Positions 25,193 through 64,000 of a stretch of DNA of 64,000 nt are shown here, piece by piece. The stretch comes from Acidobacteriota bacterium (GTDB lineage Bacteria; Acidobacteriota; Terriglobia; Terriglobales; SCQP01): the NCBI GenBank assembly GCA_027459505.1, contig DAIDIE010000014.1, forward strand, positions 124,001-188,000, written 5' to 3'. How positions within the stretch are numbered: the first letter of the stretch is position 1; the number at the start of each line of letters is the position of its first letter. The position numbers and the translations under genes were made by a program. The notes below the pieces were generated by a model. The model saw nothing but the letters and a program-made list of their open reading frames with translations, was not told the origin of the DNA and made no database searches.

Positions 25193-25223
25193 GCGCCTGA
25201 AGGGCAAGCTGAGTCCCGCCACG

Positions 25224-25266
25224 CGAAAAGGCCCTGAGGATCCCCTCAGGGCCTTTTCGTTTGTGC
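25224..25266 (+). terminator. Rho-independent terminator after poxB-like gene
   Basis: A perfect 16-bp stem CGAAAAGGCCCTGAGG / CCTCAGGGCCTTTTCG (25224-25239 and 25244-25259) with a 4-nt loop, followed by GTTTGT. The A-run and T-run in the stem ends make it potentially active on both strands. Confidence 0.93.
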
Positions 25267-40365: not shown

Positions 40366-40836
40366 TTAGCCGCGGCTGGCGATTTTTCCAGGTAACTTTA
40401 CGATATCAATGCGCACCGGAGTCACACCAGCACCGGCAAAGCCCAACCGGCGTGCGGCGGCGCGCGAGAGGTCGATAATACGCCCGCGTACCACCGGGCC
40501 GCGATCGTTGATGCGCACAATTGCGGAATGATCGTTGCACAGATTGGTGACACGCACCAGCGTGTTGAAGGGCAACGTGGGATGCGCCGCGGTCATCGCG
40601 GTATCGTGAAAGGTCTCGCCGTCAGTGGTCTGACGACCGTTGAATTGCCCGCCATACCAGGAGGCCAGCCCAATCTGCAGCGGCACTCGTTGCGGGCACG
40701 GCAACTCCGCCGCCTTGCGGTGCGCGGACGGCAGAGCCCGCAGGGGAATCAATTCAAGTGGTTGCGTGAGCCCAAGCCCCGCCAGAGCCAGGCACACGGC
40801 CAGCCCCGAAACTAAAATATGGCAGGTTTGACGCAT
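40366..40836 (-). CDS. rlpA: Septal ring lytic transglycosylase RlpA family protein
   Basis: A 156-residue exported RlpA double-psi beta-barrel protein. A signal sequence lies at residues 7-25. The barrel shows Gly-Leu-Ala-Ser-Trp-Tyr-Gly-Gly-Gln-Phe-Asn-Gly-Arg-Gln-Thr, Glu-Thr-Phe near 74, Ala-His-Pro-Thr-Leu-Pro-Phe and Val-Arg-Ile-Asn-Asp-Arg-Gly-Pro with Ile-Asp-Leu-Ser. No SPOR domain follows, so this is the short form. RlpA acts on denuded peptidoglycan at the septum in Pseudomonas. The signal lacks a clear lipobox (Gly-Leu-Ala-Val-Cys occurs near residue 15, so a lipoprotein is possible). A structured leader lies upstream. Confidence 0.9.
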   Translation of the reverse strand: MRQTCHILVSGLAVCLALAGLGLTQPLELIPLRALPSAHRKAAELPCPQRVPLQIGLASWYGGQFNGRQTTDGETFHDTAMTAAHPTLPFNTLVRVTNLCNDHSAIVRINDRGPVVRGRIIDLSRAAARRLGFAGAGVTPVRIDIVKLPGKIASRG

Positions 40837-40870
40837 AGAGCTCTCCTGAAGCTTTTTAAGGAAATCGGCA

Positions 40871-41041
40871 ACTGCATTCGCAGTCAGGCGACGCGATGAG
40901 CCTGGCCGTTAGAAGACCAGCGGGGAATTTTCATCGCGGAGGCATCACCGCAATCCGGTCAACAGCGGTTGACTGGCTTGCATGCCTCAGCAGTCACTGA
41001 ACGGCTTAGATGCCGTCCATAACCCCTTCAGGTTAGCTGAA
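40871..41041 (-). ncRNA. Candidate structured RNA in the rlpA leader
   Basis: About 170 bp with seven Watson-Crick helices in series: ACTGC/GCAGT (40871-40884), CGCGATGA/TCATCGCG (40892-40899 with 40931-40938) enclosing CTGGCC/GACCAG (40902-40907 with 40915-40920), GAGGCAT/ATGCCTC (40939-40945 with 40982-40988) enclosing GTCAAC/GTTGAC (40958-40973), ACGGC/GCCGT (41001-41016), and TTCAG/CTGAA (41027-41041). The nested layout resembles a riboswitch or structured leader. The minus strand is assumed because rlpA follows at once; the plus strand is not excluded. I could not match it to a known family. Confidence 0.55.
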
Positions 41042-41162
41042 TGGAAGAAAAAAGACAAGCCACTACGAATCGCCCTGCGCCACTAACAAATCCGGCCACG
41101 CCACCAGTGTTCTAACACGCGGCGGCGTGCCCTGCGCGGCGATGGCCGCCTTCAGCAACGGC

Positions 41163-41375
41163 CTACGACGCCGGGCGCTCCTCAATCGGGCGCCGCGCAA
41201 TCCGCCACTCGCCCGAGCCGGTGGCCTCAATCGGAAACTGCTGCGCACATTTCATGCAGCGCACATGCCCGTAAATCGGCACCCCGAAACGGTGTTGGCA
41301 ACGCCGCAGCCGAATCCCGGCGAATGCGATAAGTGCGACGACTACTGCGGAGAAAATGGTGAGTGGGAACCCCAT
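41163..41375 (-). CDS. Small membrane-anchored zinc-ribbon protein
   Basis: A 70-residue protein starting Met-Gly-Phe-Pro-Leu-Thr. Residues 2-20 form one membrane helix. Then Arg-Cys-Gln-His, and Val-Arg-Cys-Met-Lys-Cys-Ala-Gln-Gln-Phe follow, a Cys/His set like a treble-clef or zinc ribbon (Cys-x2-Cys). The N-terminal half of the longer frame (to 41609) is antisense to dacB and looks non-coding. It is divergent from dacB, overlapping only its promoter area. ATG 41393 is an alternative start. Function unknown. Confidence 0.55.
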   Translation of the reverse strand: MGFPLTIFSAVVVALIAFAGIRLRRCQHRFGVPIYGHVRCMKCAQQFPIEATGSGEWRIARRPIEERPAS

Positions 41376-63900: not shown

Positions 63901-63994
63901 AGCCAGGGCCGAGTCGAACCGCTTTCGAGTTCGAGATCGCAGATCCGTCAGCTTCGGCCGGACGACGAAGCTGTGGAATAAAAGCGGCCGTGCC
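63901..63994 (+). repeat. Dispersed repeat, copy B
   Basis: It starts 6 bp after the last array box and reaches nearly to the window end. It matches 46662-46762 (AGCCAGGGCCG at the start, TCGAGTTCG inside, AAAAGCGGCCGTGCC at the end). The gap between the two blocks is 7 bp shorter than in copy A. It may run past the window. Confidence 0.75.
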
Positions 63995-64000
63995 GCCTGC

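Follow-up and report, generated by a model that had tools for sequence, protein, structure and literature searches.

Does the 171-nt region at positions 40871-41041, which lies upstream of an rlpA-like gene and is made up largely of complementary segments, correspond to a structured leader RNA, and if so, does that RNA belong to a known class, to a new one, or to neither? The window, i.e. the whole stretch of DNA that was analysed, comprises 64,000 nt from an Acidobacteriota bacterium (SCQP01; assembly GCA_027459505.1, contig DAIDIE010000014.1, positions 124,001-188,000 of the forward strand). The rlpA-like gene occupies 40366..40836 on the minus strand and encodes 156 aa with a DPBB_1 lytic transglycosylase-type domain (Pfam PF03330, E 1.5e-23); its start codon, an ATG at 40836, is preceded at a distance of 6 nt by the Shine-Dalgarno sequence AGGAG (40843..40847), as read from the sequence. 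A gene for a small conserved membrane protein of 70 aa (HRFG...VxCxxC...GEW), which matched no Pfam family, precedes rlpA on the minus strand at approximately 41163..41375; a divergent gene on the plus strand encodes a D-Ala-D-Ala carboxypeptidase (Peptidase_S13). Homologues of rlpA were present in all 60 relatives; the small membrane protein gene was found in 10 of these 60 genomes, all of one family, and immediately precedes rlpA in several genera, the order small protein gene then rlpA recurring in genomes G002, G005, G007, G010, G011 and G013.

A sequence-only reading had described the region as a set of helices ending about 35 nt before the rlpA start; the distance was measured as 35 nt, and every helix was found where it had been placed, including the 8-bp and 7-bp helices that enclose inner hairpins. 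Read as minus-strand RNA, both the sequence and its fold contain hairpin B (40939..40988), composed of a 7-bp GAGGCAU/AUGCCUC helix, a 4-bp GCAA/UUGC helix and an inner GUCAAC/GUUGAC stem; hairpin C (40892..40938), in which an 8-bp CGCGAUGA/UCAUCGCG helix surrounds CUGGUC/GGCCAG; and hairpin D (40871..40884), ACUGC-GAAU-GCAGU. As DNA, hairpin C corresponds to CGCGATGA/TCATCGCG (40892-40899 with 40931-40938) with CTGGTC/GGCCAG inside, and hairpin B to GAGGCAT/ATGCCTC (40939-40945 with 40982-40988) with a GTCAAC/GTTGAC hairpin inside. Hairpin A lies at 40992..41024 (GGUUAUGGACGGC/GCCGUUCA-UGACU), and 3 of its 13 minus-strand pairs are G-U. The outermost helix of the region is TTCAG/CTGAA, at 41027-41041.

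In order to gauge how unusual this fold is, the 171 nt were compared with 200 dinucleotide shuffles on each strand; the plus strand folded at -72.3 kcal/mol (z -4.62) and the minus strand, which is that of rlpA, at -70.8 kcal/mol (z -3.33), and none of the 200 shuffles folded as well on either strand. The earlier judgement that these helices exceed what GC-rich DNA yields by chance was thus clearly borne out. A background was also drawn from the same assembly, using composition-corrected energies for 8080 windows of 171 nt on both strands of 464 kb. On the plus strand the region ranked 54th of all 16160 strands and 14th of the 862 intergenic ones, and on the minus strand 124th and 27th respectively, placing it among the best 1.6-3% or so of intergenic strands; several of the loci ranking above it look less like branched leaders than like dispersed repeats or long stem-loops, the latter probably terminators. 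When 160 intergenic windows were sampled, z <= -3.33 was reached by 3.75% of strands and z <= -4.62 by 1.9%. The fold is above chance, yet neither unique in this genome nor extraordinary.

The evidence from this one sequence favours the minus strand as the one transcribed, because of its G-U pairs, the gene order and a candidate promoter. By our reading of the fold, the minus-strand helices include about five G-U pairs whose plus-strand counterparts are C-A mismatches, and one case runs the other way. The promoter candidate, TTGTCT-N17-TAACCT (41058-41030, minus), is sigma70-like and weak, at 7/12 matches; it consists of a predicted -35 box TTGTCT (41053..41058), recognised by eye, a 17-nt spacer and a predicted -10 box TAACCT (41030..41035), and in a promoter scan it fell under the threshold and was not listed. 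The same scan found nothing promoter-like on the plus strand. Across genera, relatives carry a promoter-like TTG-N17/18-TANNCT at the same position, and the predicted -10 box is in register with theirs: TATCCT at locus L003, TATTCT at L010, L011 and L013, and TATAAT or TATACT in another genus.

From such a promoter, transcription would begin at about 41024 on the minus strand, close to the start of hairpin A, giving a leader of about 187 nt that would run 5' to 3' through hairpins A, B, C and D, a spacer, AGGAG and the ATG. The transcript would thereby form three to four stable hairpins just 5' of the Shine-Dalgarno sequence, which is itself mostly paired in the predicted fold of a transcript from 41024 (probability of being unpaired <=0.1 for 4 of its 5 bases). 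The leader also contains small ORFs (MDGI, 12 aa and MKIPRWSSNGQAHRVA), none of which is preceded by an evident Shine-Dalgarno sequence. The earlier suggestion of a structured rlpA leader stands as the most plausible account of the region, given the promoter-like minus-strand site in register, the good Shine-Dalgarno sequence and the larger number of minus-strand G-U pairs; its extent does not, since the -10 box falls within the 171 nt and the helix at 41027-41041, which overlaps that box, would be left out of the transcript.

When a longer minus-strand sequence was folded, the structure was closed by a long-range helix of 7+4 bp between the leader's 5' end and the rlpA Shine-Dalgarno sequence, its 5' arm being AGCU-AA-CCUGAAG (41026..41038) and its 3' arm CUUCAGG-AG-AGCU (40839..40851). 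Most of its pairs had a probability of about 0.9, and the whole element including this helix gave z -5.07. Such an arrangement is what a translational switch would use, in which the 5'-end arm pairs over the Shine-Dalgarno sequence, like a riboswitch P1 helix or an RNA thermometer, and is released in response to a signal. The energy of the duplex, however, was not significant, as 375 of 2000 shuffled versions of the upstream sequence did as well; moreover, the 5' arm lies over the predicted -10 box and would be part of the transcript only if that began at a promoter farther upstream, and in relatives no conserved counterpart of the helix was established. With the duplex no better than chance and its 5' arm overlapping the predicted -10 box, we did not accept the helix as a Shine-Dalgarno-sequestering switch, which we regard as improbable. 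A fuller proposal would have a genus-specific RNA respond to a signal, be it a metabolite, temperature or stress on the wall, and control translation of RlpA, a peptidoglycan hydrolase, through a ribosome-binding-site helix that opens and closes; this is less probable still.

To determine whether the region belongs to a known RNA family, an Infernal search with Rfam 15 was carried out, as the earlier reading had proposed. At gathering scores there was no match across the whole window, and at E <= 10 there was nothing meaningful for the region; the best chance match, to Cis90_sRNA, scored 13 bits against the 50 needed and fell outside the element. The same search of 20 relative loci and the leader of G005 likewise gave no match. 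The c-di-AMP riboswitch (ydaO-yuaA, RF00379) was examined directly; it too is a structured 5' leader, with wall-related genes among its targets in other bacteria, which include a cell-wall peptidase in Corynebacterium (PMC9960051). The rlpA leader, however, matched RF00379 neither at the gathering score nor at E <= 10, so that the earlier failure to fit the sequence to this family was upheld and this identity was rejected, although a positive control from this genome scored 83.6 bits. That control is a genuine member of the family (G000:C33:74657-74797, i.e. L082 1501-1641), the only one among the 31 genomes searched, with none in 13 other family members; it sits between two reading frames resembling APC-type permeases. 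The genome also encodes a DAC (diadenylate cyclase) domain (PF02457, E 1.4e-39) at G000:C9:101054-101407, and by the presence of this domain the organism probably makes c-di-AMP. With both the riboswitch and the cyclase domain in the genome, the family is present and detectable here, and the rlpA leader is not a member of it. With structured 5' UTRs that act in cis more generally (orphan leaders, thermometer-like elements, translational attenuators), the leader shares stable hairpins between the predicted promoter and the Shine-Dalgarno sequence and a Shine-Dalgarno sequence that is predicted to be paired; unlike them, it has neither conservation nor a second instance. The open-access literature yielded nothing relevant on rlpA leaders or riboswitches, and no confirmation there of the earlier statement that rlpA-type wall genes are known c-di-AMP riboswitch targets.

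Relatives of the element were sought at the level of both sequence and structure. A BLAST search of the genome found a single copy. A covariance model (R1), built from the single sequence of the element and its fold, recovered in its own genome only the element and its opposite strand; the latter match, at the same place and with 29.8 bits, is the palindrome itself. Among 60 relatives, the window's own species being the only one of its genus in the genomes searched, the model found nothing convincing (best E 0.038), and in 396 genomes of the phylum it found no match. The two weak matches, in G023 (E 0.038) and G002 (E 0.52), are at chance level over 60 genomes and are not at the listed rlpA loci of those genomes. 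Applied with filters off to the relatives' rlpA loci, including the syntenic leaders of sister genera, the model gave nothing credible. The proposal of a new leader class is consequently unsupported, there being no second instance in its own genome, the 60 relatives or the 396 phylum genomes, and the syntenic leaders of sister genera failing to fit.

The rlpA leaders of other family members, whether read or searched, shared no common sequence or structure, and those of sister genera differ in length and sequence. Five of the relatives' leaders nevertheless fold above chance (z -3.8, -3.2, -3.0, -3.1 and -2.5), differently from the one studied here, whereas four others gave z -0.15 to -1.65. 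In a neighbouring genus, loci L010, L011 and L013 (genomes G002, G007 and G010) have a strongly folded rlpA leader of about 245 nt with different helices (z -1.7 to -3.8), and an unrelated rlpA-like leader at L057 is also highly structured (z -2.5). Among three near species of the neighbouring genus, leader identity was 94.8-97.4%, and fourfold sites in the genes nearby gave 85-97.5%; this leader thus diverges about as fast as nearby sequence, with no sign of special constraint.

Together, these results bear on what the region is. We favour, with about even confidence, the explanation that the 171-nt stretch corresponds approximately to a 187-nt rlpA 5' UTR that is structured, lineage-specific and of generic effect on stability or translation. 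This structured 5' UTR is suggested by the significance of the fold, the gene order common to six genomes and the promoter-like sites in register; by the lack of a plus-strand promoter, the minus-strand G-U pairs and the predicted pairing of the Shine-Dalgarno sequence; and by the observation that several relatives' rlpA leaders also fold above chance, though differently. Against it stand the syntenic sister-genus leaders, which lack conserved structure, the leader of the neighbouring genus, which shows no sign of special constraint, the weak promoter match and the stronger fold of the plus strand (z -4.6). Ranking close behind, and possible if rather doubtful, is that the folding has no regulatory role, the region being a GC-rich intergenic spacer or 5' UTR whose helices arose incidentally. 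That 3.75% of sampled intergenic strands fold as strongly as the minus strand, that the structure occurs in no relative, and that the neighbouring-genus leader evolves no slower than its surroundings all agree with chance; the failure of any shuffle to match the fold on either strand argues otherwise, as does the form of the element, branched and with few unpaired stretches where several better-scoring loci are long stem-loops or repeats.

The remaining alternatives carry little weight. The good folds on both strands, the outer arms, which look like 13-nt inverted repeats, and the dispersed palindromic repeats that this genome carries would suit either the relic of a mobile or repeat element of palindromic form or operator palindromes acting at the DNA level; the element is single-copy, however, no target-site duplication was seen, and the outer repeat takes in the rlpA Shine-Dalgarno sequence, so that this origin is very unlikely, and a repeat or mobile element was rejected on the basis of one copy by both BLAST and covariance model. 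Riboswitch aptamers are normally conserved across genera. A conserved ligand-sensing class is unlikely, and that the leader represents a new ligand-binding riboswitch class is the least probable reading of all: it is branched, compact, upstream of a wall gene and has no Rfam match, but it is a single instance among the genomes searched, with nothing in 396 phylum genomes.

Under the favoured explanation, a structured 5' UTR, the effect of the hairpins would most likely be modest and generic, such as altering the stability of the transcript or partly occluding the ribosome-binding site, so that rlpA translation is set or tuned. To our knowledge, few cis-regulatory RNAs have been characterised in Acidobacteriota; if regulatory, this leader would be a case in which a septal wall hydrolase is controlled at the RNA level in the phylum. 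At present it stands as a single structured leader, an orphan lacking any conserved counterpart, and its main use is as a seed model for further genomes of the genus.

Two other structured elements were noted in the course of this work. One is a highly structured repeat of roughly 100 nt that is dispersed between genes; copies at 91-95% identity occur at 63950-63998 of the window and at L059 2920-3030, L076 5514-5616 and L071 7331-7405. At 25223-25259 of the window lies a long, near-perfect palindrome (CGCGAAAAGGCCCTGAGG...), which is probably a terminator.
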